From positions 1 through 23,605 of IMG/VR virus record IMGVR_UViG_3300030103_001858: a stretch of DNA of 23,605 nt; one strand, 5' to 3'. Below the pieces are notes generated by a model. It worked only from the letters and a program-made list of their open reading frames with translations. It had not been told where the DNA came from and ran no database searches. Of the stretch, positions 3,379-21,393 are shown one piece after another. Both the position numbers and the translations under genes were made by a program. How positions within the stretch are numbered: the first letter of the stretch is position 1; the number at the start of each line of letters is the position of its first letter. Source of the DNA: a virus.

Positions 3379-3387
3379 ATATTTTTA

Positions 3388-3395: not shown

Positions 3396-3399
3396 AGAT

Positions 3400-5185: not shown

Positions 5186-5844
5186 TGAAAATATTAAATT
5201 TATATGCATGTCTTGGTGGTAATCGATACAAATGGAATGAAGTTAAAGATGATATAGAAGTAACAGCAGTAGAACTTGACACAGAATGTGCTAGATTATA
5301 TCAAGAAAGATTTCCTAATGATAAGGTAATTGTAGAAGATGCACATCAATATTTGTTAGACCATTATAAAGAATACGATTTTATATGGAGTTCTCCACCA
5401 TGTCCTACTCATAGCAGATTTAATTTATCTATGAAAACAGTACAAAAAATGAGATATCCAGATATGCAATTGTATCAAGAAATAATTTTTTTAGATACTT
5501 TTTTTAAAGGTAAATATTGTGTTGAGAATGTAATACCATATTATAAACCATTAATTACTGCACATAAAAGAGGTAGACATTTATATTGGACTAATTTTAA
5601 TTTACCTAATAACATAAATGAAAGAAAAAACCCACAATTATCAAGAGGTCTATCTAAAGATATAATTTTAAATCTTTCAAAATATCACGATTATGATTTT
5701 AAAAAATATAAAGGTAAACAAGATATGAGAAAAATTGCAAGAAATTTAGTTGATTATGAAGCAGGTAAAACTATATTTGAAACAATGTTGGGAATAATAA
5801 AAAAAGAAAATATTAATCAAACAGAATTATTTTCATTAAAATAA
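5185..5844 (+). CDS. DNA (cytosine-5)-methyltransferase, compact phage form
   Basis: This 219-residue protein has the main C5-methylase motifs: motif I NLYACLGGN (5-13), which binds S-adenosylmethionine; an acidic residue after the second strand (VELD, 29-32); motif IV SSPPCPTHS (69-77) with catalytic C73; motif VI VENV (113-116); and a motif VIII-like KRGRHLYW (128-135). It transfers a methyl group to cytosine in DNA. It is short compared with bacterial restriction-linked enzymes (usually over 300 aa), so the target-recognition region is small; similar compact forms occur in Bacteroidetes phages. No cognate restriction enzyme is nearby, so protection against host restriction is the likely role. 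It is the last gene before late motif A. Confidence 0.85.
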   Translation: MKILNLYACLGGNRYKWNEVKDDIEVTAVELDTECARLYQERFPNDKVIVEDAHQYLLDHYKEYDFIWSSPPCPTHSRFNLSMKTVQKMRYPDMQLYQEIIFLDTFFKGKYCVENVIPYYKPLITAHKRGRHLYWTNFNLPNNINERKNPQLSRGLSKDIILNLSKYHDYDFKKYKGKQDMRKIARNLVDYEAGKTIFETMLGIIKKENINQTELFSLK

Positions 5845-5855
5845 ATTAAATAAAA

Positions 5856-5869
5856 TTCTATTATATTAT
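5856..5869 (+). promoter_or_regulatory. Late-promoter-like motif, copy A
   Basis: TTCTATTATATTAT abuts the ATG at 5870. The TATTAT core (5859-5864) is 5 nt from the ATG. It shares TCTATTATAT and this spacing with copies at 9173, 18278 and 21380. It heads the ParB-ABC/GNAT-terminase block. Confidence 0.55.
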
Positions 5870-6379
5870 ATGAAGTTAAAAATCAATGAGTTAAAACCTA
5901 ATCTTGCTAATCCAAGAATTATAAAAGATGATAAGTTTAAGAAGCTTGTTCAATCTATAAAAGATTTTCCTGAAATGTTAGAATTAAGACCAATAGTTGT
6001 CGATGAAAATATGACTATTCTTGGTGGTAACATGCGACATAAAGCTTGTATTGAAGCAGGTTTGAAAGAAGTTCATGTTAAAATTGCTAAAGGATTAACA
6101 GAAGAACAGAAAAAAGAATTTATAGTAAAAGACAATGTAGGTTTCGGAGAATGGGAATGGGATATATTAGCTAACGAATGGAACAGCTTAGATTTATCAG
6201 AATGGGGCTTAGATGTATGGCAAAATGAAGATGATAAAGAAACATCAATTAAAGATATATCAGAAAATATATCAGATGAATTTAGAGTAGAAGTAGAACT
6301 AACATCAGAAAGAGAACAAGAAGCATTGTTTAATGATTTAACTAAAAAAGGATATAAATGCCGAATTTTAACATTTTAA
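5870..6379 (+). CDS. ParB/Srx-fold DNA-binding or nuclease-like protein
   Basis: This 169-residue protein carries the ParB N-terminal domain: NPR at 14-16, RPIVVD at 40-45, GGNMRHKA at 52-59 (the ParB box that binds CTP or nucleotide in characterised members) and EFIVKDN at 83-89, then a FGEWEWDIL segment. No HTH of chromosomal ParB follows; the C-terminal 45 residues form a small acidic alpha/beta module. Phage proteins of this form are frequently linked to DNA modification genes rather than to partitioning. There is no ParA in the window. It overlaps the ABC/GNAT gene by 22 nt, so the two products probably work together. The start directly follows late motif A. Confidence 0.75.
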   Translation: MKLKINELKPNLANPRIIKDDKFKKLVQSIKDFPEMLELRPIVVDENMTILGGNMRHKACIEAGLKEVHVKIAKGLTEEQKKEFIVKDNVGFGEWEWDILANEWNSLDLSEWGLDVWQNEDDKETSIKDISENISDEFRVEVELTSEREQEALFNDLTKKGYKCRILTF

Positions 6380-7437
6380 GGGAAACAAAACCTAAAAAAT
6401 CTTTTAGAGTATCATCAGTAATGGGTAAGTTTGATTTGCAAACTGAACATATAAAAGAACATTTTGAGGGTAATATAGATATAGATGATAATTGGCAAAT
6501 AGGATTAATAGTTGGTAATAGTGGTACAGGCAAAACTACTATTGCAAAAGAATTATTTGAAAATGCTTATGTAACTAATTTTAAATATGAAGCAGAAACT
6601 ATATTAGATGATATGCCTAAACAAGCATCTGTTGATGATATAACTAAAATATTTAATAGTGTTGGTTTTAGTAGTCCACCAAGTTGGTTAAAGCCATATT
6701 CAGTATTATCGAATGGACAAAAGATGAGGGTTGATTTAGCCAATGCATTATTAAGAGAAGATGAATTGATAGTATTTGATGAATTTACATCAGTTGTTGA
6801 TAGAAATGTAGCTAAAATAGGTTCTTATGCTATGCAAAAGGCTGTACGTAAATCTGATAAAAAGTTTATAGCTGTAACTTGTCATCATGATGTTCAAGAT
6901 TGGTTGCTTCCTGATTGGGTATTTAACACAGATAGTATGACCTTTCAAAAACTTGAAGGGCAAAAAAAAAATAGACCAAAAGTTAGATTTGAAATATTCC
7001 AAACAAGAGATAAGTCAATATGGAAAGTGTTTGCTAAACACCACTATTTAAGTCACACACATAATAATGCTGCACATAGTTATGTAGCTTATGTTAATGA
7101 ACAAATAGCAGGATATATAAGTATATTACATTTACCTAACAAAAAACCTAACTTAAAAAAAGTACATAGATTGGTTATATTGCCTGATTATCAAGGAATA
7201 GGAATAGGAGGAAGATTATTAGATTTTATAGCTAAAAAATATACAAAAGAAAATTATGTAATGGGAATAACAACATCAGCACCAAGTTTAATATTTTCAT
7301 TAAAAAGACATATAGATTGGGTTTGTTATTTCTTTGGTAGAAATACAGGTAAACAAAAGATGGAAGGATTTAATAAAACAAGTACTAAAAATAGAATAAC
7401 AGCAGCATTTAGATATATAAAAAATGGACAAAAATAG
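6358..7437 (+). CDS. ABC-type ATPase fused to a GNAT (Mom-like?) acyltransferase
   Basis: This 359-residue protein has two domains. The first (about 1-205) is an ABC ATPase: Walker A GNSGTGKT (53-60), signature LSNGQ (117-121), Walker B IVFDEF (138-143, Glu142) and an H-loop-like VTCHHD (173-178). It has no membrane segments, so it is not a transporter. The second (about 210-359) is a GNAT fold: HHYLS at 228-232 and the acetyl-CoA loop QGIGIGG at 279-285, preceded by HRLVILPD. Phage Mu Mom, which modifies adenine in DNA, is a GNAT-fold enzyme, and the HHYLS segment and terminase neighbourhood make a DNA-modifying role plausible. That is inference; a protein substrate is also possible. It overlaps both neighbours (22 and 14 nt). 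Confidence 0.8.
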   Translation: MPNFNILRETKPKKSFRVSSVMGKFDLQTEHIKEHFEGNIDIDDNWQIGLIVGNSGTGKTTIAKELFENAYVTNFKYEAETILDDMPKQASVDDITKIFNSVGFSSPPSWLKPYSVLSNGQKMRVDLANALLREDELIVFDEFTSVVDRNVAKIGSYAMQKAVRKSDKKFIAVTCHHDVQDWLLPDWVFNTDSMTFQKLEGQKKNRPKVRFEIFQTRDKSIWKVFAKHHYLSHTHNNAAHSYVAYVNEQIAGYISILHLPNKKPNLKKVHRLVILPDYQGIGIGGRLLDFIAKKYTKENYVMGITTSAPSLIFSLKRHIDWVCYFFGRNTGKQKMEGFNKTSTKNRITAAFRYIKNGQK

Positions 7438-7777
7438 ACACATAAAAAAAGAAGCAATATTAAAAGCATTAGAAAATAGTTTGGGAGTAGTTACATTAGC
7501 TTGTAAACAAGCAGATATACCAAGAAGTACGTATTATAAATGGTTAAAGGAAGACAACGAATTTGCTAAGTCAGTAAAAGAAATTGAAAACATAGCTTTA
7601 GATTTTGCTGAAAGTCAATTGCATACACAGATTAAAGATGGTAGCACATCAGCTACAATATTTTATTTAAAGACAAAAGGTAAGAAAAGAGGTTATATAG
7701 AAAGAAGTGAATTAGACTTATCATCAGGAGATGAACCTATAAAAATTAATGTAAATATCAAAGGAGTTGAATATTGA
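7424..7777 (+). CDS. Terminase small subunit-like DNA-binding protein
   Basis: This 117-residue protein starts with a helix-turn-helix (about 8-42: EAILKALENSLGVVTLACKQ, then DIPRSTYYKWLKED) followed by helices and the segment ATIFYLKTKGKKRGY (about 76-90), the pattern of phBC6A51-type small terminases, in which the last block is highly characteristic. It would recognise the packaging site and assemble with the large subunit. It lies directly upstream of the large terminase and overlaps it by about 11 nt, and overlaps the ABC/GNAT gene by 14 nt. Confidence 0.85.
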   Translation: MDKNRHIKKEAILKALENSLGVVTLACKQADIPRSTYYKWLKEDNEFAKSVKEIENIALDFAESQLHTQIKDGSTSATIFYLKTKGKKRGYIERSELDLSSGDEPIKINVNIKGVEY

Positions 7778-9077
7778 TACTGAATTTACTCATACACAAG
7801 GACAAGCAATAGAATATCTATTCGATAAACAAACAACAGAAGTATTATTTGGAGGTGCAGCAGGTGGAGGTAAAAGTTGGGTAGGTTGTAGTTGGCTTAT
7901 TCTTTTATGTATTAAATACCCAAAGACAAGATATTTAATGGGTAGAAGTAAATTAGACTCATTAAAGAAAACAACATTAAATACTTTTTTTGAAGTTTGT
8001 CAAACTTGGGGTATATTAGCTAATAAACATTATAATTTTAATGCAGCATCTAATATAGTTAAGTTTTATAATGGAAGTGAAATAATATTAAAAGACTTGT
8101 TTTTATATCCATCAGATAGGAACTTTGATAGTTTAGGTTCATTAGAAATAACAGCAGCTTTTATAGATGAAGCAAATCAAATAACAGAAAAAGCAAAGAA
8201 CATAGTTGCATCAAGAATGAGGTATAAATTAGATGAATATAATTTAATACCAAAATTATTAATGACTTGTAACCCAGCTAAGAACTGGGTATATACACAA
8301 TATTATAAACCTGCTAAAGAGGGAGTTCAGAAACCACATAGACAATTTATTCAAAGTTTAGTAGATGATAATCAATTTATATCTAAACATTATAAATCAC
8401 AGCTATTAACATTAGATGAATTAAGCAAACAAAGGTTATTATATGGTAATTGGGAATATGATGCAACAAATGATAATTTAATAGAATATGATGCTATATT
8501 GAATTTGTTTAATCAAATAGGGAAACAGGGAGATAAATATATAAGTTGTGATGTAGCTCGTTTTGGTAATGATAGAACAATTATAATGCTTTGGGAAGGG
8601 TTACATATTAAAAAGATAAGAAGTATTGGTAAATCAGCTGTAAATCATGTTGTGGATGAGATTAGGCTGTTACAACAAACTAATAGTGTAAGATTGACAA
8701 ATATAATAGTTGATGAAGATGGAGTAGGTGGTGGTGTAAAAGATTATATGCGTTGCAGGGGTTTTGTAAATAATTCAAGAGCATTAAAAGGAGAGAACTA
8801 TCAAAATTTAAAAACACAATGTTATTACAAATTAGCTGATATGATTAATACTGCTCAAATAGGAATAGATTGTAATGATATAAATATGAAAAACCATATT
8901 ATAGAAGAACTTGAGCAGGTAAGAACTAAAGATGCTGATAAAGATAATAAGCTACAGATAATACCGAAAGAAACTGTTAAAGATATTATAGGACGTTCTC
9001 CTGATTATGCAGATGCTTTAGCTATGAGAATGTTTTTTGAATTAGATTCAAATTATGGTAAATATTATGTACAATAA
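7767..9077 (+). CDS. terL: Terminase large subunit
   Basis: This protein of about 436 residues packages DNA using ATP and cuts concatemers. ATPase domain: Walker A GGAAGGGKS (29-37), Walker B FIDEAN (132-137), coupling motif CNP (168-170). Nuclease domain: CDVARFGNDRT with Asp262, VDEDG with Asp316, and SPDYADAL with Asp413/Asp416. Length is usual for the family. The start is unusual: there is no ATG in the first 50 codons, so I use TTG at 7767, which directly follows AAAGGAG; an ATT at 7773, 6 nt beyond that sequence, would fit a Shine-Dalgarno spacing better. The gene ends 2 nt before a terminator-like hairpin and late motif B follows. No portal gene follows, which is atypical. Confidence 0.93.
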   Translation: MNIDTEFTHTQGQAIEYLFDKQTTEVLFGGAAGGGKSWVGCSWLILLCIKYPKTRYLMGRSKLDSLKKTTLNTFFEVCQTWGILANKHYNFNAASNIVKFYNGSEIILKDLFLYPSDRNFDSLGSLEITAAFIDEANQITEKAKNIVASRMRYKLDEYNLIPKLLMTCNPAKNWVYTQYYKPAKEGVQKPHRQFIQSLVDDNQFISKHYKSQLLTLDELSKQRLLYGNWEYDATNDNLIEYDAILNLFNQIGKQGDKYISCDVARFGNDRTIIMLWEGLHIKKIRSIGKSAVNHVVDEIRLLQQTNSVRLTNIIVDEDGVGGGVKDYMRCRGFVNNSRALKGENYQNLKTQCYYKLADMINTAQIGIDCNDINMKNHIIEELEQVRTKDADKDNKLQIIPKETVKDIIGRSPDYADALAMRMFFELDSNYGKYYVQ

Positions 9078-9079
9078 GA

Positions 9080-9109
9080 AAAGGTGCAACTCCGAAGAAT
9101 TACACCTTT
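9080..9109 (+). terminator. Hairpin after the large terminase, possible terminator
   Basis: AAAGGTG (9080-9086) pairs with CACCTTT (9103-9109); the stem can extend by two A-T pairs past one mismatch. There is no long T tract after it, so it may be a weak terminator or an mRNA 3'-end stabiliser. It lies 64 nt before late motif B. The rest of 9110-9172 is A-rich with no gene. Confidence 0.5.
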
Positions 9110-9172
9110 GAAAAACAAAAACTTTTAGAAAACGAGGACAAACATAATGATTTTAAACTAAAAACCAAATAA

Positions 9173-9186
9173 TTCTATTATATATT
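9173..9186 (+). promoter_or_regulatory. Late-promoter-like motif, copy B
   Basis: TTCTATTATATATT abuts the ATG at 9187, with TATTAT (9176-9181) 5 nt before it. It heads the tail gene block and follows the hairpin at 9080-9109. Confidence 0.55.
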
Positions 9187-9831
9187 ATGCGATTGAAAAT
9201 AAATAAAGATGGCAAAGAAAGTGTTTACACAATGATAAATAGTTGGAATGATGTAACACTTGACAAATGGATTAAATTAATAAGCAATAAAGAAAAAACA
9301 AATACTCAAGAAGCTATTGATTTGATAAGCACATTATCTGATATGCCAAAAAAGTTGATAAAAGAATTATCAATAAACGACATATCTTTAATAATGAATA
9401 AAATAGCAGTTTTACAAAACAAAGCTGAATCTAAATTAAAAAGTATTATAAAGGTAAATGATATTGAATATGGTTTCCATCCTAATTTGGAAGATATAAC
9501 ATTAGGGGAATATGCTGATTTAGAAACATATTTAAAAGATGGCATACAGAATAATTTAACTAAAATAATGGCTGTGTTGTATAGACCTATAACTGAAAAA
9601 GATGGAAATAATTATTCTATCGAAGCTTATGGTAAAAGTGATTTGAGAATGAGGGCAGAAAAATTAAAAAAAATGAAAGCAGCAGATGTAAATAATTCAT
9701 TGGTTTTTTTTTGGATTTTCGTGAAAGAACTATTGAAATGTTTGCAGCAGTATTTAATGGAACAGAACAAGAAAATACTAAACAAAGTGCAGATGAACAA
9801 TTTGCAGAAAAATGGGGTTGGTTCGGTGTGA
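9187..9831 (+). CDS. Tail assembly chaperone-like protein (lambda G-like), frameshift donor
   Basis: This 214-residue mostly helical protein resembles, by position and form, the tail assembly chaperones upstream of tape measures. Residues 15-110 are helical, around 95-150 there is ITLGEYADLETYLKDG, and around 170-185 NNSLVFFWIFVKELLKCLQQYL, a pattern I associate with the end of this family in Bacteroidetes phages. Codons 173-175 lie in a run of nine T that forms the slippery heptamer T_TTT_TTT (9705-9711). A -1 slip there would give a 256-residue fusion ending at 9956, as in lambda G/GT. The first codon directly follows late motif B. The tape measure is seven genes downstream, farther than usual. 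Confidence 0.6.
   Translation: MRLKINKDGKESVYTMINSWNDVTLDKWIKLISNKEKTNTQEAIDLISTLSDMPKKLIKELSINDISLIMNKIAVLQNKAESKLKSIIKVNDIEYGFHPNLEDITLGEYADLETYLKDGIQNNLTKIMAVLYRPITEKDGNNYSIEAYGKSDLRMRAEKLKKMKAADVNNSLVFFWIFVKELLKCLQQYLMEQNKKILNKVQMNNLQKNGVGSV
9704..9712 (+). other. T9 run with canonical -1 frameshift heptamer
   Basis: In the frame of the upstream gene the codons read GTT TTT TTT TGG, giving T_TTT_TTT at 9705-9711. The -1 frame has its last upstream stop at 9693-9695 and is then open to 9956, so the slip site lies just inside the allowed window. A homopolymer read error is the main alternative. Confidence 0.5.
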
Positions 9832-9956
9832 TGTATCGGTTGACAAATGGAGAAATAATTAATTTGGAAAGAATAACTAATTTAAGTTTATATGAGTGTT
9901 TAACTTGGCTAACTTATGAAACAGATTTAAATGAAACTAAAGCGGTACAAAGATGA
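9738..9956 (+). CDS. Tail chaperone extension / overlapping gene (lambda T-like)
   Basis: The frame is -1 relative to the preceding gene and is open from 9696. I give the ATG at 9738 (MFAAVFNG) as a possible own start, about 72 residues; by -1 frameshift at 9705-9711 the same frame becomes the C-terminus of a 256-residue fusion. The conserved-looking part is AEKWGWFGVMYRLTNGEIIN and NLSLYECLTWLTYETD, of a type found in phage tail chaperone T-domains (KWGW...LA.GDI pattern). The overlap with the upstream frame is about 94-120 nt, much longer than any other here. The 3' end overlaps the next gene as ATGA. Confidence 0.6.
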   Translation: MFAAVFNGTEQENTKQSADEQFAEKWGWFGVMYRLTNGEIINLERITNLSLYECLTWLTYETDLNETKAVQR

Positions 9957-10447
9957 CATATTTTAAAGATTATAATAATACAATAGATACATTAAAGCAA
10001 TTAGGTGCAAATCATTATCAAATACAAACTGTAGAATCAGGAGATATATATGATATGGATTTGGAAAAAAACACTATGTTCCCTTTAATGTTTATTAATC
10101 CAATAAATGCAATTGCAGGAACACATGAAATGACATTGAACTTTCAAATATTTATTATGGATTTAGTATTTCCAGACCAATCAAATGAACAAGAAGTATT
10201 ATCAGATTGTCTGCAGATATGTAATGATTTAATTGGAACATTTAAAAATGGAGAAAGTCTTTTACTATCTAATCAGGGAATAAATGCTATACCAAAATAC
10301 TTTACAGAAGGAGATATAACATTAGAGCCATTTACAGAAAGGTTTGATAGTTCAGTAACAGGCTGGGTGTTTACTTTACCAATTATTATAGAAAATGAAT
10401 ATAACACTTGTATAGCACCACAATCAACAACAGATGCAATACAATAA
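9953..10447 (+). CDS. Tail terminator/completion-like protein
   Basis: This 164-residue alpha/beta protein has the form seen in Bacteroidetes phage tail completion proteins: PLMFINPINAIAG (about 44-56), then FQIFIMDLVFPDQSNEQEVLSDCLQI in successive strand and helix (64-90), then LEPFTERFDSSVTGWVFTLP (122-142) and a final ENEYNTC. The sequence 'D.....N..EVLSD...I..D' and the 'PFTERF...GW' are diagnostic of that group in my experience. It would cap the tail or join it to the head. It starts in an ATGA overlap and ends in TAATG with a 22-codon ORF. Confidence 0.55.
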   Translation: MTYFKDYNNTIDTLKQLGANHYQIQTVESGDIYDMDLEKNTMFPLMFINPINAIAGTHEMTLNFQIFIMDLVFPDQSNEQEVLSDCLQICNDLIGTFKNGESLLLSNQGINAIPKYFTEGDITLEPFTERFDSSVTGWVFTLPIIIENEYNTCIAPQSTTDAIQ

Positions 10448-10515
10448 TGTTTAAATTTAAAATAGGAAAATTAACGATACAATTAATACCACCAAAAATA
10501 ACTTATAAAATATAA
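10447..10515 (+). CDS. Possible 22-residue microprotein
   Basis: An ATG overlapping the upstream stop as TAATG opens a 22-codon frame, MFKFKIGKLTIQLIPPKITY followed by KI, ending 3 nt before the next gene. It is basic and amphipathic. It fills what would otherwise be one of the larger gaps here and its junctions match those of real genes, but such a short frame could be chance. No homology can be judged. Confidence 0.35.
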   Translation: MFKFKIGKLTIQLIPPKITYKI

Positions 10516-10518
10516 CAA

Positions 10519-10962
10519 ATGGCAGATTTAACAACAACAATTAGTGAATCAGTAGTGCTTAATGGTGCAGTAAGAGGCACTACAAACACAGTAACAACAA
10601 CAGGAATAAATAACGTATATGAAAGAATAGTAACTTGTACTAGTTCACAAACTACACATATAGCAACTTTTAATACTAACTCTTATGGTTCAGCAGTTCA
10701 AATAGATAAAGAAGATGTTAGATATATTAGAATAACTAACTTAGATGCAACTAATCATTTAATCTTAGCAGTTGTAGGTGCAGCTACATTATATCAATTA
10801 AAAATAGGTGCAGGACAATCACATATTCTACCACTAGCAGATAATGTTATGTTAGCAGAAGCAGATACTACTCCAAGTTTTTTAAATATGGCAGATTTAA
10901 CAAGTATACAAGTAAACCCTGCTGCTACTTTAGATGTAGAAATATTTGTAGCTAGTGTATAG
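10519..10962 (+). CDS. Beta-rich virion protein, probable decoration or tail component
   Basis: This 147-residue protein is rich in Thr, Ala and Val with few charged residues and a strand-after-strand pattern (TTTISESVVLNG, YERIVTCTSSQTTHIATF, RYIRITNLDATNHLILAV, HILPLADNVMLAE, DVEIFVASV). It has no Cys pair or catalytic motif. The make-up is that of a jelly-roll or immunoglobulin-like structural protein on the phage particle. It lies in the tail block between the completion-like gene and an HK97 gp10-like gene. Its role, capsid decoration or tail, cannot be fixed from sequence. Its stop overlaps the GTG start of the next gene (TAGTG). Confidence 0.55.
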   Translation: MADLTTTISESVVLNGAVRGTTNTVTTTGINNVYERIVTCTSSQTTHIATFNTNSYGSAVQIDKEDVRYIRITNLDATNHLILAVVGAATLYQLKIGAGQSHILPLADNVMLAEADTTPSFLNMADLTSIQVNPAATLDVEIFVASV

Positions 10963-11516
10963 TGAAAGCTTTAGAAAGATACTTAAATAGCTTTGGTAAA
11001 AGTATAGTCAATAAGTCTATAGGAATATTAAAAAGGAAAAAAAAAGAAGTAACAGGTGCTTTGATTAATAGTATCAAATATAAACTTATTAAAACATCAG
11101 AAGGCTATACAGTTCAATTTAGCATGTTAGATTATGGTAAATTTATGGACAAAGGAGTATCAGGTGCAGGTGGAGAGATTAAAACAGGAAAAAATAAAGG
11201 TCAATATACAGGTATAAGAAGTTTTACAGATTATAAAGGTGTAACTAAAAAAAGTCCATATAGTTATAAAACTAAAATGCCACCAACTAATGTATTTGAT
11301 AAATGGATAGTAAAAAAGGGAATAGCGCCAAGAGATGAAAAAGGAAGATTTATAACTAGAAAAAGTTTAAAATTTGCTATTGCAAAAAGTATTTATATAA
11401 AAGGAATTGAAGGAATAAGTTTTTTTCAAAAACCATTAGGATTAGAATTGAAAGGTTTTTCAACAGAAGTTGCAAAAGCAGTAAAACAAGATGTATTAAA
11501 TAATTTAAGAAAATGA
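10962..11516 (+). CDS. HK97 gp10-like / neck or tail-completion protein
   Basis: This 184-residue basic protein starts at GTG 10962 in a TAGTG overlap. N-terminal helices (1-40) lead to VTGALINSIKYKLI and YTVQFSMLDYGKFMDKGVSGAGG (about 30-70), the pattern of HK97 gp10-type proteins that bridge head and tail: a GaLa-S-i block followed by a strand and a 'YG.F.d.G' block. Residues 70-110 form a lysine/glycine loop, unlike short members. The C-terminus is helical. I judge the family assignment likely, the exact role less so. It overlaps the next gene as ATGA. Confidence 0.6.
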   Translation: MKALERYLNSFGKSIVNKSIGILKRKKKEVTGALINSIKYKLIKTSEGYTVQFSMLDYGKFMDKGVSGAGGEIKTGKNKGQYTGIRSFTDYKGVTKKSPYSYKTKMPPTNVFDKWIVKKGIAPRDEKGRFITRKSLKFAIAKSIYIKGIEGISFFQKPLGLELKGFSTEVAKAVKQDVLNNLRK

Positions 11517-12973: not shown

Positions 12974-15765
12974 TGTCAATACAATTAATATTATATCCTC
13001 AAACGTATGATGGTACTTATTCTTCAGTAAGTAACCCTATTTTTAATGAATATGTAGCAGATAATGTAAATTTTACTACATTATTAAACTTTACAGGGTA
13101 TGATTCTACAGCTAATGATGTAGGGTTAGATGCAATTAACAATTCAGTAGGTATAGCAGCTTGGAAAAGATTTAGAAGTACAGGTGGAGCGTTTAGCTCA
13201 GTAACTATGCCTTCTAGAAGTAATGCTAATGGATTAGAATTATATTCTGCAAATGGTTCTACATCAAGTTCAGGGGTATATCAAAAAATTATAGGTTTAT
13301 CAATGGGAACTGTATATGATTTAACTATAAACATTACACAAGCAGGTGCAGGTGGTTTATTAGTTATAGGAACACAGGGTAATATTACAAGCCAATATGA
13401 AACATTAGGTGGACAAACATTATTTACAGCTTTAAGCACAGCAAGTACAGGAACACAAACAGTATCATTTACTGCTGATAGTCCTGAAGAAATATTATTA
13501 TTAGCTTATCAAAATGATAATGGTTCTACAGTTTATATAGATAAAATAAGTATACAAGAAACAGCACAGCAACCTAGTTTTATATTTACAGATTTATCAG
13601 ATGGACAAGTTATATGCGACCTTTATGAAGAAGAAGACATACCTTTAACTTTATCAGTAGATAATTTTAAAAATGTAGCAGAGAAAACACAAAGCTATTC
13701 TAAAGACTTTAATTTACCTGCAACTAAAAGGAATAATAAAATATTTACACATCTTTTTGATATAACTAAAGTGTGGGATAGTTATAGCTTTAATCCTTAT
13801 GTTAAAACACAATGTGTGCTTAAACAAGATGGCTATGATATATTTAAAGGTTATTTAAGATTAATAGACATTGTAAATCAAGAAGGAGAAATAAGCTATA
13901 ATGTTAATTTATATTCTGAACCTGTAACTCTTGTAGATACATTAAAAGCTAAAAAAATAAGTGATTTAACAGAATTAAAAGAATTAGACCACTTATATAA
14001 TAAATCTAATATTAAAGCAAGTTGGGATACTACAGGTATAACTTTAATAAATCCATTAGGTGCTAATTCTTTTGCAGGTTCACAAGGAGACACAACAACT
14101 GAAGTATTAAAATATCCTTTTGTAGATTGGACAGGTAATATAAGTCTAACTGCACCATCAGGAAGTGGTGCAATAAGTGGAAGACCTGTTTTAAATAGTT
14201 TAGAAGATGCTTTTAGACCTTTTATAAACTGCAAATATTTATTAGATAATATAATTAGAGATGCAGGTTTTACATATACATCTAATTTCTTTAATAGTTC
14301 AGCTTTTACAAAGTTGTTTATGGATTTTAATTGGGGTTCAGGTAATGCACCTTCAGAAAGTAAAAATACAGTAACAGGGTATTATTTTAGAGATAAAGCA
14401 ACAAGTATAAATACAGCTACCTCAAACTATTCACAATTACAGATTAATCATAATCCTAGTGTATGGAATAATAATATAGGATGGTCTAATTATAAATTCA
14501 CAGCACAACAAAATAACATATCTTATAATATTGTTTATTCTTATGAAATAGAATTTAGTTCAGGTTCAGCTTTTGAATGTAGATGGGTACACAAAGATAG
14601 TGGGGGAACAGTTTATCCTAATGGAGAAATAGATTATGTAAGTTTTACACCTGTTGGTTCAGGTAATTTAGCTTGGAGTCATAATTTTACAAGAACATTA
14701 CAGCAAGGAGATACTTTAGAAGCACAATTTAGAGCATCGGCAGGTACAGTATCACAATATCAATTATTACCCCAACCAACAACACCTACAGCATCTTTAA
14801 CAGCTAATGTTACACAATTAGCAGCTACATCTTCATCATTTTTAAATGCTTTGAGAGGGGAATTAGGACAATGGCAGTTTTTGAAAGGTATATTTAATAT
14901 GTTTAATCTTGTAGTATTGTCAGATAAAGACAATGTAAATAACCTTATAATAGAAACGTATGATGATGTATTTAATGTAACTACATCAGGAACATCTTTA
15001 GCATCTAGAAGTATACAATATGACTGGACAGATAAAGTAGATGCTACACAAATACAATTAAAGCCATTAGAATTAATAAATAGAACTATATTCAAATATG
15101 AAGAAGATGATGAAGATTATATTTTTAATGAATATAAAAAATCTACTAATGGAATTAATTATGGGCAAAAAATATGGGATGGTATAAATCAATTTGGCTT
15201 TACCATTTTAGAAGGAGAAGAAGAAATAACAGCTAGTCCTTTTGCAGCTACCTTATCAAAACCTTTATTTGACAATTTATCTGATTTTATAGTACCATCT
15301 ATATTTTCATCAAATGATAATAACACAGAAAATGAAAGTTTTAATAATTTACCTAGAATATTATATGATAATCGTAAAAAGAATACTAATACAACTTATT
15401 ATATACCTGCACAAAATTCATATACTAGTGAAAACCAACAGTATTTTTTACAATTTAGTCATTTGTCTGAAATTTTACCTAATTTAAATACTATAGATTA
15501 TAATTTTGGAGAATGTCAATTAATTAATCCTATGAGTATAAGCCCAACTAATAATTTATTTAATACTTATTGGGCTAGATATTACTTTGAATTATATGAT
15601 AAAAATACGAGAATAATAACTTTAAAGGTTAATCTAAATGCTGCTGATATTAATAACTTTAACTTTAATGATAGAGTAATGATAAAAAATAGAGCTTTTA
15701 GAGTTAATAAGATAGAATATAAACCAAATGATTTATCAACTGTAGAATTTATATTAATACCATAA
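12973..15765 (+). CDS. Large tail hub/adhesin protein with N-terminal carbohydrate-binding-like domain
   Basis: This 930-residue protein is the largest here. Residues about 35-195 look like a jelly-roll carbohydrate-binding module (GVYQKIIGLSMGTVYDLTIN, ending VYIDKISIQE). From about 205 comes a block I associate with Bacteroidetes phage baseplate hubs: VICDLYEEEDIPLTLSVDNF, then SYSKDFNLPATKRNNKIFTHLF, then a 'GYLRLIDIV' strand set. The central part is Ser/Thr/Asn-rich; residues 480-600 may be a second sandwich. The last 45 residues (FNDRVMIKNRAFRVNKIEYK) form a compact beta end. It probably forms the tail tip contacting the cell surface. No lysozyme or peptidase motif is seen. TAATG links it to both neighbours. 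Confidence 0.6.
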   Translation: MSIQLILYPQTYDGTYSSVSNPIFNEYVADNVNFTTLLNFTGYDSTANDVGLDAINNSVGIAAWKRFRSTGGAFSSVTMPSRSNANGLELYSANGSTSSSGVYQKIIGLSMGTVYDLTINITQAGAGGLLVIGTQGNITSQYETLGGQTLFTALSTASTGTQTVSFTADSPEEILLLAYQNDNGSTVYIDKISIQETAQQPSFIFTDLSDGQVICDLYEEEDIPLTLSVDNFKNVAEKTQSYSKDFNLPATKRNNKIFTHLFDITKVWDSYSFNPYVKTQCVLKQDGYDIFKGYLRLIDIVNQEGEISYNVNLYSEPVTLVDTLKAKKISDLTELKELDHLYNKSNIKASWDTTGITLINPLGANSFAGSQGDTTTEVLKYPFVDWTGNISLTAPSGSGAISGRPVLNSLEDAFRPFINCKYLLDNIIRDAGFTYTSNFFNSSAFTKLFMDFNWGSGNAPSESKNTVTGYYFRDKATSINTATSNYSQLQINHNPSVWNNNIGWSNYKFTAQQNNISYNIVYSYEIEFSSGSAFECRWVHKDSGGTVYPNGEIDYVSFTPVGSGNLAWSHNFTRTLQQGDTLEAQFRASAGTVSQYQLLPQPTTPTASLTANVTQLAATSSSFLNALRGELGQWQFLKGIFNMFNLVVLSDKDNVNNLIIETYDDVFNVTTSGTSLASRSIQYDWTDKVDATQIQLKPLELINRTIFKYEEDDEDYIFNEYKKSTNGINYGQKIWDGINQFGFTILEGEEEITASPFAATLSKPLFDNLSDFIVPSIFSSNDNNTENESFNNLPRILYDNRKKNTNTTYYIPAQNSYTSENQQYFLQFSHLSEILPNLNTIDYNFGECQLINPMSISPTNNLFNTYWARYYFELYDKNTRIITLKVNLNAADINNFNFNDRVMIKNRAFRVNKIEYKPNDLSTVEFILIP

Positions 15766-16610
15766 TGGAATATAGAAAAGGATATACTATAAAACCTAAA
15801 GAAATTAGTCAATCAGGAGAAGTTACATTTACTGATGGAACTAATGATGTAGCAGCAAATCAAGCTGTATGTGAAGCTTATGGTTATACTTATAATAAAG
15901 AATCAGCAACTTGTAATGCTTTTAAATATAGCACCAGAATAAATGAAAATACTAATATATCTACAAACATAATAGGTGGTGCTAAAAATACTTTAGAAAG
16001 AGGTTCAGACAATATATTAGTAGTAGGAGAAAAAAACTTAACTAAAGGAGTAAATAGAAATGTATTTATGTCTGGTGCAGAAAATGAAATAGAAACTGGT
16101 GTAAATAATTCTTCAGTAATTGCTGGTAAATTTGGTATTATAGAAAATCAAGGAGAAATAGTAGTAGGTGGTGGTGGATTTAATACTGCTTTAGGGCTTG
16201 CACAGACATCTTTTATACAACAATCAGGTAATACTACTGATGGAACACAAACTTCTTTATATACTCAATATATCACTAATAAATTTATTGAAAAAGTACC
16301 TAATGCAGTTATAGGATTTGAAGCTAATGTAATAGGTGTAAATACAGGTGTAGGAGAAGGAACAGTAGGACAATATGGCTATGTACAGATTACAGGTGCA
16401 GTTACCTTTACTAATGGGTTGGCTTCTACATATCATCAAGCAACAACACATATAGTACAGTCAGGACATAGCGGAATGAATATAACAGCAGTAATGAAAG
16501 ATGCTACTGCTACTTCTTTTGGTGTTGCAGTAACAGGATTAGAAGAAACATATATACAATGGACTGCTGAAGTAAAATTATGGAGAAATAAAATACAACA
16601 AACAATATAA
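15765..16610 (+). CDS. Tail appendage protein with beta-roll repeats
   Basis: Residues about 58-125 of this 281-residue protein show a repeated short pattern (NTNISTNIIGGAKNTLE, SDNILVVGEKNLTKG, RNVFMSGAENEIETG, NSSVIAGKFGIIENQG) with period near 14-17, suggestive of the left-handed beta-roll of trimeric adhesin heads. It leads to GEIVVGGGG and then TDGTQTSLY and a beta-rich C-terminal domain, an organisation like phage fibre C-terminal domains that cleave themselves (Peptidase_G2-like). No catalytic Ser/Asp set could be confirmed. A trimeric fibre or tail-tip role is likely. It sits between the hub and the tape measure. Confidence 0.5.
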   Translation: MEYRKGYTIKPKEISQSGEVTFTDGTNDVAANQAVCEAYGYTYNKESATCNAFKYSTRINENTNISTNIIGGAKNTLERGSDNILVVGEKNLTKGVNRNVFMSGAENEIETGVNNSSVIAGKFGIIENQGEIVVGGGGFNTALGLAQTSFIQQSGNTTDGTQTSLYTQYITNKFIEKVPNAVIGFEANVIGVNTGVGEGTVGQYGYVQITGAVTFTNGLASTYHQATTHIVQSGHSGMNITAVMKDATATSFGVAVTGLEETYIQWTAEVKLWRNKIQQTI

Positions 16611-16612
16611 TT

Positions 16613-18256
16613 ATGGCAACTGAAGAAATAGTTTTAAATGTAAAATCAGATATTAAATCAGTAAATAAAGATGCTCAAGACTTAAACAGTACATTAGAAG
16701 AACAAAAAAAGATACTTACTGAATTACAAAGAGAAGAAATACAACTTGAACAAACAAGGGCAGGTATGTCTGATTATGAGGCAAGCATATCTGGTGTAGA
16801 TAAACAATTAAAACATTTAAAAGGTTCTATAAAAGAACAAAAATTTGAAGTTAAACAATTAACAGAGGAGCAAAAAAAGAATACAAACGAATTAAAAGAA
16901 AACGAAAAAGCTATAAAAGATGGTATAGGTAATTTTAGAGTGTTCGGTGTTTCTTTAAATGGTATTCAAAATTCTATTAAAAAGATTATTCCTAGTATAA
17001 AATTAATGTTTGGTACTATAAAAGCAGGAATATTAAGTACAGGTATTGGTGCTTTATTAATTGCTTTTGGTTCTTTAGCTACATATTTTACATCAACAAA
17101 AAAAGGTGCAGACCAATTAAAAATAGCTTTTACTGCAATAGGTGCAACAATAGATGTATTAAGAGATAGATTGTCAAAAGTAGGAGAAGCATTAAGTTTA
17201 GTTTTTTCAGGTAAATTTAAAGAAGCAGGAGATTTATTCAAAGAAAGTGTTACAGGCATTGTTACTGAAATAAAAGAAGAAATTAAAGTAATGACTGAAC
17301 TTGAAAAAAGAACACAATCTTTAAGAGATGCAGAATTAGCATTTTCAGTTCAAAAAGCAAAAACCAGACAAGAAATAGAAAAAGCAAGACTAATAGCAGA
17401 AGATGAATCTAAAAGTGCAGAAGAACGTATTGAGAATTTAAAAAAAGCATTAGAATTAGAAGAACAAACTACTAAACAAGAATTAAAACTAGCTGAAGAA
17501 AGAGTTAAGATACAAGAACAACAAATGGCTGTTTCAGAAAATCTTGTTGAAGATGAAAAGAAATTAGCTGATTTAAAAGTAGCATTAATAGAAAAAGAAA
17601 CAGCATCTATTAAATTAAGAAGAAGGGTTGTTACTGAAGTTAATGCATTAGAAAGAGAAATAGCAGCAGAAGAAGCCGCAAGATTAAAAGAAAAAGAAGA
17701 TAGAGAAGAAGCAGCAAGAAAAAAGAAAGAAGAAGCAGATAAAAAAGCTGCAAAAGAAGCAGAAAAATTAGCTAAAAAACAAGCTAAAGAAGTATTAGAT
17801 ATAGCAAAAGCAACAGAATCAGCAAAAGAAAATTTAATTAAACAAGGTTTTGCAGTGGCAGGAGAATTAGCAGGAGAAAATGCAGCTTTGTCTAAAGGTG
17901 TAGCTGTTGCTCAAACAGTATATAGTACACAACAAGCTATTATGGCGGCACTTGCAGCAACTTCTGTAGGAGATAAACTATTACCTTATCCATTAAGATT
18001 AGCAAATGCTATTGGTGCAGGTATAATGGGTGCTTCTGCTATAAAAAAGATATTGTCAACAAGTCCAAATGGTGCAGGTGCAAGTGTATCAACTCCTACA
18101 GCAGCAACAGGAACTCCTGCACCTCAAATGTTAAGCGGTAAATTTGAATTAGGCGGAACAGAAGAACAACAACCTGTACAAGCTTATGTAGTTACTGATA
18201 GCTTAACTGATAATCAAAACAAATTAGCTTATATAAGAAGGAGAGCTACAATATAA
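16613..18256 (+). CDS. Tail tape measure protein
   Basis: This 547-residue protein has long coiled-coil regions (about 20-105 and 230-410, rich in Glu, Lys, Ala), a hydrophobic glycine-rich segment at about 131-160 (GILSTGIGALLIAFGSLATY), and a second hydrophobic stretch at about 435-475 before a Pro/Thr/Ala tail. This coil-membrane-coil form is that of tape measure proteins, which set tail length and help DNA pass into the cell. At about 0.15 nm per residue it would correspond to a tail of roughly 80 nm, so a siphovirus-like particle is suggested; no sheath gene is visible. It is the last gene before late motif C. Confidence 0.8.
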   Translation: MATEEIVLNVKSDIKSVNKDAQDLNSTLEEQKKILTELQREEIQLEQTRAGMSDYEASISGVDKQLKHLKGSIKEQKFEVKQLTEEQKKNTNELKENEKAIKDGIGNFRVFGVSLNGIQNSIKKIIPSIKLMFGTIKAGILSTGIGALLIAFGSLATYFTSTKKGADQLKIAFTAIGATIDVLRDRLSKVGEALSLVFSGKFKEAGDLFKESVTGIVTEIKEEIKVMTELEKRTQSLRDAELAFSVQKAKTRQEIEKARLIAEDESKSAEERIENLKKALELEEQTTKQELKLAEERVKIQEQQMAVSENLVEDEKKLADLKVALIEKETASIKLRRRVVTEVNALEREIAAEEAARLKEKEDREEAARKKKEEADKKAAKEAEKLAKKQAKEVLDIAKATESAKENLIKQGFAVAGELAGENAALSKGVAVAQTVYSTQQAIMAALAATSVGDKLLPYPLRLANAIGAGIMGASAIKKILSTSPNGAGASVSTPTAATGTPAPQMLSGKFELGGTEEQQPVQAYVVTDSLTDNQNKLAYIRRRATI

Positions 18257-18277
18257 AAATCAAATATTAATTAAAAA

Positions 18278-18292
18278 AATCTATTATATATT
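18278..18292 (+). promoter_or_regulatory. Late-promoter-like motif, copy C
   Basis: AATCTATTATATATT abuts the ATG at 18293, with TATTAT (18282-18287) 5 nt before it. It lies in a 36-nt gap between the tape measure and the protease gene and heads the head-gene block. Confidence 0.5.
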
Positions 18293-19024
18293 ATGCCTTG
18301 TAAAAAATGTGGAAAAAAATGGAAATGGGGAGAAAATGGTGAATGTAAATACGACACTAAAGAAGCTTGTGAAAAAGCTAATCCTAAACATTATGAAAGT
18401 TTAAAAAGTACTAAAATAGTTGAATTAATAATTAGTGATGAAAGTGAAGAACTAACTATTGATGCAATTAGCTTGGTAACAAGTCCTGCTATTGAGCAAG
18501 ATTTTGTTTACTTTGGTAAAGAAAAAAACAATTTAACTTTTGCTAAAATTGATGAAGAAAAAAGAATGTTGGTTAGTCCTGCATTAATTCCTAATAAACA
18601 AATATTTAGGTATGACCCTAATACAGATAGCGATTATTACGTCTATTTTTCAAAAAATACGGTAAAAAAAGCGGCAGAACTTTATTTAAAACACAACAAT
18701 CATCATAAAGCTACATATCAACACGAAGAAAGGGTATCAGGTGTTTTAACTATTGAATCTTGGATAAAAGAAGGAGATATGGATAAATCTAAGTTATATG
18801 GTTATGATTTACCAAATGGTACTTGGTTTGTCAAAATGAAGATTGAAAATGATGAAATGTGGAATAAAATAAAAGATGGAGAATTAAAGGGCTTAAGTAT
18901 CGAAGGTTACTTTATTGATAAGATGGAAAAAATGTCTGAAACAATAAAACCTACTAATGAAGAAATACTTGCTGCTTTAAATGAAATAATTCAAGACATT
19001 AAAAATCAAACAAAAGGAAAATAA
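18293..19024 (+). CDS. XkdF-like phage serine protease (prohead protease)
   Basis: This 243-residue protein matches the XkdF/Peptidase_S78_2 pattern: TIDAISLVTSPAIEQDFVYF (55-74), then LVSPALIPNKQIFRYDP (93-109), YYVYFSKNTV (115-124), THE-type YQHEE with His144, IESWIKEGD (154-162), NGTWFVKMKI (175-184) and LKGLSIEGYF with Ser202 (199-208). It would cleave scaffold and capsid precursors. The N-terminus (1-34) is a separate cysteine-rich piece with C3, C6, C18 and C26, possibly zinc-binding. The neighbours are a scaffold-like and a capsid gene, which supports the role. A fusion with scaffold is not present. Confidence 0.8.
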   Translation: MPCKKCGKKWKWGENGECKYDTKEACEKANPKHYESLKSTKIVELIISDESEELTIDAISLVTSPAIEQDFVYFGKEKNNLTFAKIDEEKRMLVSPALIPNKQIFRYDPNTDSDYYVYFSKNTVKKAAELYLKHNNHHKATYQHEERVSGVLTIESWIKEGDMDKSKLYGYDLPNGTWFVKMKIENDEMWNKIKDGELKGLSIEGYFIDKMEKMSETIKPTNEEILAALNEIIQDIKNQTKGK

Positions 19025-19037
19025 TTCTATTATATTA
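19025..19037 (+). promoter_or_regulatory. Late-promoter-like motif, copy D (offset from ATG)
   Basis: TTCTATTATATTA starts one base after the protease stop. Its TATTAT is at 19028-19033. The next ATG is at 19053, so an RNA starting 5 nt after the core would have a leader of about 14 nt, unlike the other copies. Confidence 0.45.
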
Positions 19038-19052
19038 AAAAAAGAACTCATT

Positions 19053-19754
19053 ATGGATTTAAAAAAACAAATATTGGTAGCACTTGGTCTTGATAATCAA
19101 GATGAAGTTAATTTGGAATTTCAGGCAAAATTGGAAGATGGAACGCTAATCGTATCTACATCTAAAAATCTAGAAGCAGGTGTGGATATATCTGTTTTAA
19201 CCGAAGATGGTTCAACTATGTTACTTCCTATTGGGGAATATAAAACAGAAGATGGACAAAGATTTTCAGTTGAAAAGGAGGGCATAGTTTCAGAACTTTA
19301 CGAAGAAGAAGAAGAAAAAGAAACAGAAGGAGAGCCTGTTAATGAAGAAATGGCTGAAGAAAAAGATGAAAAAGACGAAGATTATGAAGAAGAAGCTGAT
19401 GTAGCTGATTGGGAAGGTATGGAAAAACGTATCAAAAACTTAGAAGATGCAGTAGCTGATTTAAAAAAGGATAAAGTAGGTAATGATGAGGTTGAAGAAT
19501 CAGATGTAGAAATGGAATCTGAAACAGAAACTAATCCAACACCTAAAAAAGTAAAAACTACAGAAGAAATTGAATTTGAATATCAAGCTAAAATAGAAGA
19601 ATTAAAATCTAAGGTTGTTGAATTATCTAATCAACCTGCAGATATTCCTGTAGATACTAATAAATTTAGCACAAACAAAAAAGATTCTACTCCTGATTTC
19701 AGTAAAATGTCTAAAAGAGATAGAATTTTATACAATTTAACTAATAATAAATAA
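19053..19754 (+). CDS. Scaffold-like protein, acidic
   Basis: This 233-residue protein is very acidic, with runs of Glu/Asp at about 86-125 (EEEEEKETEGEP and MAEEKDEKDEDYEEE) and a coiled coil near 125-140 and 170-200. The N-terminal 80 residues look beta-rich (LIVSTSKNLEAGVDI, STMLLPIGEYKTED). No catalytic motif. Acidic, helical proteins immediately upstream of the major capsid gene and downstream of a prohead protease are typically scaffolds removed by proteolysis. The C-terminus has a DFSKMSKRDRILYNL segment, possibly capsid-binding. Confidence 0.7.
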   Translation: MDLKKQILVALGLDNQDEVNLEFQAKLEDGTLIVSTSKNLEAGVDISVLTEDGSTMLLPIGEYKTEDGQRFSVEKEGIVSELYEEEEEKETEGEPVNEEMAEEKDEKDEDYEEEADVADWEGMEKRIKNLEDAVADLKKDKVGNDEVEESDVEMESETETNPTPKKVKTTEEIEFEYQAKIEELKSKVVELSNQPADIPVDTNKFSTNKKDSTPDFSKMSKRDRILYNLTNNK

Positions 19755-19769
19755 TTAAAATAAAAAAAA

Positions 19770-20684
19770 ATGGCTTTTACGGTAACTAGTAACTATGCAG
19801 GGAAGGCAGCTGGATTTTATATTTCGGCGGCACTTAAAGAAGCAACATCTTTAGACCACTTAACTGTATTACAAAACATAAAATATAAAGAAAATTTGCA
19901 AAAAGTTGCGGGTTCTAATTTGGTAAGGAATGCAGATTGTAATTTCACAGACCATGGAACACTTGCATTAACTGAATCGGTTCTCGAACCAAAATTACTA
20001 CAAATTAATATGCAAACGTGTAAAGACACGCTGCTTAGTTCGTGGGAGGCTGACCAAATGAGAGCAGGTGCTATGAATAACAATGCTCCTAAATTTGAGG
20101 ACTACGTTATTTCTTACTTTACACAACATATTGCTGATGCAGTTGAATCTTCTATTTGGAGTGGTGCTGCTGCAACTAATGGACAGTTTGAAGGATTTTT
20201 AACTGCCACTACAGGTGCTTTTGCAGTAAATGGTAACGTAGTACAAACTAATAACGTAGGTGGTGCAGGAACTGCTTATACTGCTGCAAACATTATAGAA
20301 AATTTACAAACTATTGCTGCTGCTATTCCTTCTACAGTATATGGTAAGGAAGATTTAAGAATATATATGAATTGGAAAACTTACAGATTATACGTTTCTG
20401 CAATCTCTGCTTTAGGATATGTAAATATGTATTCAATGAACAACGATTATGAAGCTACTTTCGAAGGTATCAGATTATCAGTTGTTTATGGTATGCCAGA
20501 TGATAAATTAGTTGCTGCTCAAGTATCTAACTTATATTTTGGGACTGACTTAGTTTCTGATACGACACAGGTTAAGATGCTTGATATGTCTCCACTAGAT
20601 GGTAGTGAGAATTTAAGATTCGTTGCTAAGTATTCAGGAGGAGTACAAGTAGGTATCGGTGCTGAAGTAGTACAGCAAGACTAA
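19770..20684 (+). CDS. Major capsid protein
   Basis: This 304-residue protein starts MAFTVTSNYAGKAAGFYISA and has an E-loop/N-arm-like region (1-60), a long beta/alpha core with NWKTYRLYVSAISALGYVNM (around 204-225), and ends with KYSGGVQVGIGAEVVQ. The late-gene position after protease and scaffold, a length near 300 and an alpha/beta pattern with Thr/Ala-rich surface loops fit a HK97-type capsid subunit. Codon use includes more C- and G-ending codons (ATC, TAC, AAC) than the early genes, as expected for a highly expressed gene. A strong hairpin lies 14 nt after the stop, which fits a separately controlled abundant message. Confidence 0.85.
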   Translation: MAFTVTSNYAGKAAGFYISAALKEATSLDHLTVLQNIKYKENLQKVAGSNLVRNADCNFTDHGTLALTESVLEPKLLQINMQTCKDTLLSSWEADQMRAGAMNNNAPKFEDYVISYFTQHIADAVESSIWSGAAATNGQFEGFLTATTGAFAVNGNVVQTNNVGGAGTAYTAANIIENLQTIAAAIPSTVYGKEDLRIYMNWKTYRLYVSAISALGYVNMYSMNNDYEATFEGIRLSVVYGMPDDKLVAAQVSNLYFGTDLVSDTTQVKMLDMSPLDGSENLRFVAKYSGGVQVGIGAEVVQQD

Positions 20685-20697
20685 TAACTAATTATAT

Positions 20698-20721
20698 GGA
20701 GAGGGGGTTTTCCCCCTTTCC
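20698..20721 (+). terminator. Strong GC-rich hairpin after the capsid gene
   Basis: GGAGAGGGGG (20698-20707), a TTTT loop and CCCCCTTTCC (20712-20721) form a 10-bp stem with one G-T pair, notably GC-rich here. It is followed by TTAACTTTT, a weak T tract, so termination may be partial and the stem may also protect the 3' end. Confidence 0.75.
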
Positions 20722-20743
20722 TTAACTTTTAAAACAGAAATAA

Positions 20744-21307
20744 ATGGCTTGTAATTTAACTAAAGGGAGAGGAATCCCATGTAGAAACCTTATTGGAGGT
20801 GTAAAGTTTGTTTATTTTGCTCAATTTGATGAGGTATCATCAATTACTACTGTTGCTTCGGAAGTAACTGATATAGAAATGGGTACTAACGATATATATA
20901 GGTATTCTATCAGGAGAGGAAATGCTTCTGTAACAGAAACTATAACAGGTTCTACAGAAAATGGAACTGTCGTATATGCACCTTCTTTAAATCTAAAACT
21001 TACAGGGCTAAGTAAAGAAGACCAAAATGAATTAAAATTAATTGCACAAAACAGAGTGATAGTATTTGTTCAATTAAATCAAGTATTATCAGCTAATGAC
21101 CATAATGTTATATTATGTTTAGGTGCTACTAATGGATTAGACTTAAATACAGGTACTAATTCATCAGGTGCAGCATTCGCAGATATGAATGGTTATGAGT
21201 GGACTTTCGAAGGGCAAGAATTTGCACCAATGCAAACAGTCGCAGATTATACTGCTACACCTTTTGACAATACTGCATTCACTATAGGAAGTATAGTAAC
21301 TTCTTAA
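20744..21307 (+). CDS. Probable major tail tube or structural protein, 187 aa
   Basis: The protein opens MACNLTKGRGIPCRNLIGGVK, then VYFAQFDEVSSI (28-39), and has YRYSIRRGNASVTETITGST and NGTVVYAPSLNLKLT blocks, a helix (about 88-105) and a final strand with GYEWTFEGQEFAPM. Bacteroidetes phages often encode such a protein ('MACN...C....GG.K..YFA.FD') among structural genes, and its size and strand content fit a tail tube or head-decoration protein. Which of these cannot be decided here. It lies between the two strongest terminators of the window and may be read by leakage through the first. Confidence 0.6.
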   Translation: MACNLTKGRGIPCRNLIGGVKFVYFAQFDEVSSITTVASEVTDIEMGTNDIYRYSIRRGNASVTETITGSTENGTVVYAPSLNLKLTGLSKEDQNELKLIAQNRVIVFVQLNQVLSANDHNVILCLGATNGLDLNTGTNSSGAAFADMNGYEWTFEGQEFAPMQTVADYTATPFDNTAFTIGSIVTS

Positions 21308-21332
21308 TAGTATATAACATATAAATTTAAAG

Positions 21333-21360
21333 AGAACTACTTCGGTAGTTCTTTTTTTTT
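21333..21360 (+). terminator. Rho-independent terminator with UUCG loop
   Basis: AGAACTAC (21333-21340), TTCG loop (21341-21344), GTAGTTCT (21345-21352), then a run of T to 21360. The stem can extend into flanking A-T pairs. Perfect stem, stable tetraloop and T tract make this a textbook intrinsic terminator. Confidence 0.92.
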
Positions 21361-21379
21361 CCAAACAAATCAAAGGTTT

Positions 21380-21393
21380 TTCTATTATATAGT
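21380..21393 (+). promoter_or_regulatory. Late-promoter-like motif, copy E
   Basis: TTCTATTATATAGT abuts the ATG at 21394, with TATTAT (21383-21388) 5 nt before it. It begins 20 nt after the terminator T tract, in the position expected for a promoter of a new transcript. Confidence 0.6.

Follow-up and report, generated by a model that had tools for sequence, protein, structure and literature searches.

A bipartite late promoter in marine phages, probably read by a phage-encoded ECF-type sigma factor

We analysed a stretch of 23,605 bases (the window) of the 24,054-base uncultured virus record IMGVR_UViG_3300030103_001858, from a marine phage, and in it a motif, TCTATTATAT, that recurs ahead of the late genes. 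We conclude, with a probability of roughly 0.9, that this motif forms the -10-type half of a late promoter made of two elements and read by the host core RNA polymerase together with a sigma factor of the extracytoplasmic function (ECF) type, which the phage itself encodes. The window is a co-directional phage genome fragment, with replication and regulatory genes up to about 5.8 kb and, beyond that point, a ParB-like/terminase block followed by tail, head and fibre blocks. The late timing of these blocks is predicted from the functions of their genes.

Exactly five copies of TCTATTATAT are present on the + strand of the window, at 5857, 9174, 18280, 19026 and 21381, and none on the - strand; the expectation under Markov models of order 1-4 is 0.07-0.19 copies. 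An earlier reading made from the letters alone (the sequence-only reading) had listed four copies, omitting the one at 19026 while speaking elsewhere of five. It had also placed the copies in real intergenic gaps ahead of late genes, and this is correct for all five. NNT-ATG directly follows four copies, and the fifth (19026) is 17 nt from its ATG, so that the reported distance of exactly 5 nt from TATTAT to the start codon is right for four of the five. The 11-mer said to be shared by all, TTCTATTATAT, is found at 5856, 9173 and 21380, and also at 19025; the copy near 18278 reads AATCTATTATAT. No recurrence was seen inside coding sequence in the window, where such recurrence had been named as grounds for doubt. 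The five putative promoters are listed here with their cores and upstream (-33-type) elements. Bit scores are those of a matrix built from related phages, and percentiles compare the score of the upstream half alone with all window positions.

5837..5846, + strand: promoter A, upstream element TAAAATAAAT; 0.9999 percentile
5857..5866, + strand: promoter A, -10-type core TCTATTATAT; 3 nt to ATG 5870 (ParB-like gene); leads the ParB/ABC-GNAT/terminase block; 32.4 bits
9154..9163, + strand: promoter B, upstream element TAAACTAAAA; 1.0000 percentile
9174..9183, + strand: promoter B, core TCTATTATAT; 3 nt to ATG 9187; leads the tail block; 40.0 bits
18260..18269, + strand: promoter C, upstream element TCAAATATTA, the weakest of the five; 0.952 percentile
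18280..18289, + strand: promoter C, core TCTATTATAT; 3 nt to ATG 18293 (head maturation protease-like); 21.4 bits
19006..19015, + strand: promoter D, upstream element TCAAACAAAA; 0.996 percentile
19026..19035, + strand: promoter D, core TCTATTATAT; 17 nt to ATG 19053; leads scaffold-like/capsid genes; 15.3 bits
21361..21370, + strand: promoter E, upstream element CCAAACAAAT; 0.9986 percentile
21381..21390, + strand: promoter E, core TCTATTATAT; 3 nt to ATG 21394; leads the fibre block; 27.2 bits

The search of the window and of related genomes with a weight matrix, which had been suggested earlier, singled out the same sites. After training on relatives, from which the copies nearest to those of the window were excluded, the matrix gave 15-40 bits at exactly the five sites in the window; the next best position scored 2.0, and the best score in 40 shuffles was 2.9. 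The core part of this matrix is circular by construction, while its upstream part and the ortholog survey described below are not. The Bacteroidetes promoter element TAnnTTTG is absent from all five late sites, in agreement with the earlier statement that the motif does not fit it, and a scan of the window for sigma-70-like promoters gave no excess (117 against 124 in shuffles).

A protein search with TerL provided 80 related contigs. Copies of the core on the + strand of these contigs almost all lie just before an ATG, and the 37 copies on the - strand lie in unrelated coding sequence. Alignment of 50 dereplicated + strand sites brought out a second conserved block, tTAAA(C/A)TAAAT, 20-11 nt upstream of the core, which was not seen in 20 control copies from coding sequence. 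The motif described at the outset is a genuine element, yet only half of one, the upstream block having gone unnoticed. The full consensus in the relatives is T(T/C)AAA(C/A)TAAAT-N9-TTCTATTATAT, and its spacer is rigid: when IMG/VR was scanned with spacers of 5-16 permitted, the distance between TAAACTAAA and TTCTATTATAT was 10 in 106 of 109 non-redundant cases.

Unbiased counts of conservation come from the survey of orthologous genes, for which contigs were collected through protein searches, independently of the motif. The exact core precedes 64 of 71 tail-gene starts (the promoter B site), with a further 5 at one mismatch, as well as 37 of 53 ParB-like gene starts and 10 of 16 protease gene starts, and it precedes none in the 7 control families with data. 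Conservation at orthologous sites spans 43-100% protein identity. Core copies, largely confined to one strand, were present in every one of the 30 long records searched. No promoter-like copy was found in Flavobacterium phage 11b or in Cellulophaga phage phi10:1 (10-53.7 kb part). A single match to the variant form of the bipartite promoter (described below) lies at 2858-2887 of L302, a record of 118,325 bases that is four times larger than the others and may represent a different phage type or a prophage.

The proposed reader of the late promoters is encoded in the regulatory region of the window, in a short operon with the following features.

3388..3395, + strand: host-type promoter element TATATTTG (TAnnTTTG), 4 nt to the ATG of gene X; expected driver of gene X and the sigma gene
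3400..3762, + strand: gene X, 120 aa, first gene of the sigma operon, overlapping the sigma start; no family
3755..4306, + strand: putative ECF-type sigma factor gene, 183 aa, proposed late-promoter reader (TIGR02937 match and fold)
3980..3982, + strand: codon of Arg76, predicted specificity-loop residue, covarying with core base 2

Profile and fold comparisons make it likely that the 183-aa protein is an ECF-type sigma factor, for which binding to core RNA polymerase and transcription initiation are predicted. Residues 11-181 match positions 10-165 of the 165-position NCBIfam profile TIGR02937 (sigma70-ECF) with an E value of 8.3e-11, and the same profile matches 63 of 63 diverse relatives, the best at 9.1e-14. 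The structure predicted from an alignment of 63 sequences (mean pLDDT 82) comprises two helical domains and a disordered linker. Foldseek comparison with the PDB gave sigma chains, or chains of sigma-containing complexes, throughout the matches listed, the best being Mycobacterium tuberculosis (Mtb) SigL (E 2e-4). A profile search of the PDB with the sigma alignments returned nothing significant, the clear answer coming only from fold comparison and NCBIfam, and none of 50,697 phage records gave a tblastn match at E 0.1 to either of two divergent sigma queries.

Pfam matched the window protein to region 4 models only, weakly and under their cut-offs. This would suit an activator that recruits the host holoenzyme, a late regulator of the ArpU/RinA kind whose helix-turn-helix (HTH) resembles sigma region 4, and late regulators with such region-4-like domains are known from other phages. 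We nevertheless regard this as improbable, given that the ECF profile was matched over its full length, that a region 2 fold is predicted with ECF sigmas as top structural matches, that the covarying residue described next lies in a region 2 loop rather than in the HTH and is paired with a -10-type base, and that the late sites lack the TAnnTTTG element.

The sigma factor reading draws much of its weight from coupled variation of protein and promoter. In part of the relatives the core is TACATTATAT or TATATTATAT instead of TCTATTATAT, the second core base being changed from C to A; the promoters of a genome change in concert, nearly all of them sharing one form. In two genomes (L296 and L307) TACATTATAT and TATATTATAT promoters are mixed; there core base 3 varies and base 2 is constantly A. 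At residue 76 of the sigma protein, all 112 dereplicated sequences from C-type phages have Arg, while the 24 A-type sequences have Asn in 18 cases, Tyr in 5 and His in 1. Among about 200 alignment columns that of residue 76 is the only one at maximal mutual information, the next reaching 0.48 of 0.67 bits. A sigma tree built without the residue 76 region places three changes of the core, and residue 76 changed along with all three; in an independent TerL tree both supported pairs agree, and seven core changes there are unsupported. The rule that links residue 76 to core base 2 is strong, though it has exceptions.

Residue 76 lies in a loop between predicted helices 57-73 and 78-89. At the corresponding place in ECF sigmas a specificity loop reads a flipped -10 base, and ECF promoters combine strict sequence with rigid spacers (PMC6411747). 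We therefore propose that Arg76, in the predicted region 2 specificity loop, would read or tolerate C at core position 2, and that region 4 is presumably the reader of the upstream element. The suggestion that the motif might represent a new phage promoter class is supported by these results, namely the rigid bipartite element, the concerted core changes and the covariation with a residue of the phage sigma.

An alternative sigma factor of the host might instead read the motif, with the phage protein doing something else, as flavobacteria possess several ECF sigmas and a sigma-54 (PMC9723704). We judge this very unlikely: the core variants differ among close phages and follow residue 76 of the phage protein, and the motif is absent from the TerL-related phages 11b and phi10:1, in which no homologue of the phage protein was detectable.

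The distance from the motif to the start codon varies among relatives in a way that bears on the transcription start. Ahead of the tail gene it ranges from 3 to 14 nt, and at the terminase small subunit gene of one group the bipartite motif and the ATG are separated by either 3 nt or 31-33 nt. Counting from the first core base, offset 13 is the A of the ATG at 74 dereplicated sites of the leaderless type. At dereplicated sites with a distant or absent ATG, offset 13 is a purine in 49 of 50 (A 45, G 4) and is usually preceded by T. Since this purine is conserved without a nearby ATG, offset 13 is likely to be the +1 base.

Taking offset 13 as the start of transcription, which is the most economical interpretation, we propose the promoter T(T/C)AAA(C/A)TAAAT-N9-TTCTATTATAT-ANT-A(+1). 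Transcription would start at the purine 13 nt past the first core base, which at four of the five window sites is the A of the ATG, so that four of the five late messages are predicted from sequence to begin with AUG and to be translated without a leader. The start on or beside the A of ATG put forward in the sequence-only reading is thus favoured as a prediction, with the qualification that leaderless placement appears to be the majority state and not a rule. Three relatives in which the terminase small subunit gene has a long leader (L145:10810-10860, L156:12491-12541 and L149:12644-12694) carry in that leader a palindrome, TTGAWTAATCAA or CAGTTAACTAA-like, about 4-8 nt past the predicted start; it is possibly an operator or a 5' hairpin.

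The same reading had offered as its alternative a translation-initiation signal standing at a fixed distance from the ATG in place of a Shine-Dalgarno sequence. Such a signal would fit the 3 nt spacing that most relatives share with four of the five copies in the window, and the lack of Shine-Dalgarno sequences in Bacteroidetes (PMC6847099). However, the motif with its upstream block is kept at 3, 4-14, 17 and 31-33 nt from the ATG, and an element found at distances of 3 to 33 nt is therefore not a fixed-distance translation signal. It is also confined to operon-leading genes, its conserved block extends 20 nt further upstream with rigid, DNA-like spacing, and it has T rather than A at -6, a position favouring initiation in Flavobacterium johnsoniae (PMC6847099). 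Together these observations leave the translational explanation with hardly any likelihood. Degenerate matches are common in an AT-rich genome, but we dismiss the idea that the motif is a chance repeat, or an operator bound by a protein such as the ParB-like product, in view of five exact, strand-specific cores against about 0.2 expected, conservation at orthologous sites over 43-100% protein identity, and an asymmetric bipartite element with a predicted start base.

Several observations count against a phage sigma factor reading a bipartite late promoter. The phages are uncultured, and the case stands on sequence comparison. The upstream element of promoter C (18280) is weak, and sites in the scans were partly chosen by exact core match, so that core conservation there is by construction. 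The window sigma scores 1.1 bits under the curated cut-off of TIGR02937 and has no Pfam match for region 2; the disordered linker between its two domains keeps global TM scores low (about 0.34). The covariation rests on three independent changes, too few for a small sign-test p value, and in a few C-type phages (L051, L059, L169, L177 and L210) a single promoter has A as its second core base.

Expression of the sigma operon itself would depend on the host. The element at 3388 is the window's only intergenic TAnnTTTG preceding a gene start, and in all relatives listed an equivalent precedes gene X by 3-5 nt (90 of 95 when a stricter range is applied), its nn positions varying freely (TATATTTG, TAACTTTG, TACCTTTG, TATCTTTG, TAAGTTTG and others). 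In several relatives TAnnTTTG, with TTTGTTAATT upstream, also lies ahead of the first early operon, which it probably drives. The distance from this element to the start site is 4-5 nt in F. johnsoniae (PMC6847099), and the sigma operon should therefore be nearly or fully leaderless too. Gene X is always present with the sigma gene, evolves faster (43-100% identity) and belongs to no family; it is a candidate co-activator or anti-sigma. The gene order at 2965-4306 of the window (NinG-like, gene X, sigma) recalls that of lambdoid phages, where ninG is followed by the late antiterminator Q.

According to the mechanism we propose, the host primary sigma would transcribe gene X and the sigma gene from TAnnTTTG at 3388 early in infection, and the new sigma would then take the polymerase to 5857, 9174, 18280, 19026 and 21381, switching on the packaging, tail, head and fibre blocks. 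More tentatively, and in our estimate with slightly less than an even chance, this would amount to a two-step sigma cascade with the sigma operon and most late operons exactly leaderless, in which replacement of Arg76 by Asn, Tyr or His in different lineages re-tunes the late promoters together and may separate the late programmes of co-infecting phages. If so, this re-tuning through a single residue would be a natural record of the evolution of promoter specificity.

The host is probably a member of the Bacteroidetes, judging from the TAnnTTTG element and from the closest phages that have been isolated. Phage contigs of this group sit in metagenome-assembled genomes (MAGs) called Pseudooceanicola and Euryarchaeota (L278 with G022 C4 and C49; L279 with G023 C18); these host labels are untrustworthy and both taxa were rejected as hosts, the contigs being merely binned there. 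Other features of the window include two stem-loops near the promoters.

9080..9109, + strand: 13-bp stem-loop between terL and promoter B; a hairpin without a clear U-run on the + strand
21331..21361, + strand: terminator-like stem-loop with a UUCG loop and then a U-run, directly ahead of promoter E; stem found on the - strand

Straight after the major capsid gene, at 20698-20721, is a strong terminator-like hairpin with no late promoter behind it, and the gene at 20744 that follows may depend on read-through. The gene at 6358-7437, within the ParB/terminase block, fuses an ABC-type ATPase domain to an acetyltransferase-like domain (phrog_11143). An Rfam scan of the window matched no family.

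Late-gene timing in Bacteroidetes phages is little known, and our literature search found no description of this motif or of late sigma factors of Bacteroidetes phages. The present analysis proposes a specific pair of factor and promoter for an abundant uncultured marine group, and the pairing of sigma residue 76 with core base 2 offers a residue-to-base rule. Structural genes are predicted to be translated from leaderless messages in a phylum that does without Shine-Dalgarno sequences and in which few mRNAs are leaderless (5.5% in F. psychrophilum; PMC9723704). The motif could serve as a simple marker of late operons in metagenomic phage genomes, and the sigma/promoter pair as an orthogonal system for Bacteroidetes genetics.

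Compared with known systems, TAnnTTTG, the element of the Bacteroidetes primary sigma (PMC6847099, PMC9723704), is used here at the sigma operon (3388) and not at the late sites. The putative phage sigma resembles bacterial ECF (group 4) sigmas such as Mtb SigL and SigH in its two domains, full-length profile match, rigid and strict promoter and region 2 specificity loop (PMC6411747). It differs from them in its late role in a phage and in an AT-rich promoter, as against the usual AAC/CGT type, and no anti-sigma was identified.

Phage-encoded sigma factors with late promoters of their own are already known. T4 gp55 is a small, divergent phage sigma for late genes that needs gp33 and the sliding clamp and acts at a -10-only late promoter without a -35 element; it shares with the protein described here its place at late genes and differs in these requirements and in the single element. 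The phiEco32 sigma gp36 likewise serves middle and late genes, from a single -10-type element, tAATGTAtA, which is explained by its lack of region 4, whereas here there are two elements and a region 4-like domain (PMC8948821). Closest in organisation is Salmonella phage 7-11, in which the phage sigma SaPh711_gp47 directs host RNA polymerase to a bipartite promoter, GTAAtg-(16)-aCTA, several copies of which stand ahead of late blocks, with host-type promoters for the early genes (PMC8948821). A TAA...CTA resemblance between the two promoters is off by one in spacing and was not taken as homology. The systems differ in consensus, host phylum and genome type and have no detectable homology, and leaderless placement is not described for phage 7-11. 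What is new here is thus the promoter sequence, the host group and the predicted leaderless placement.

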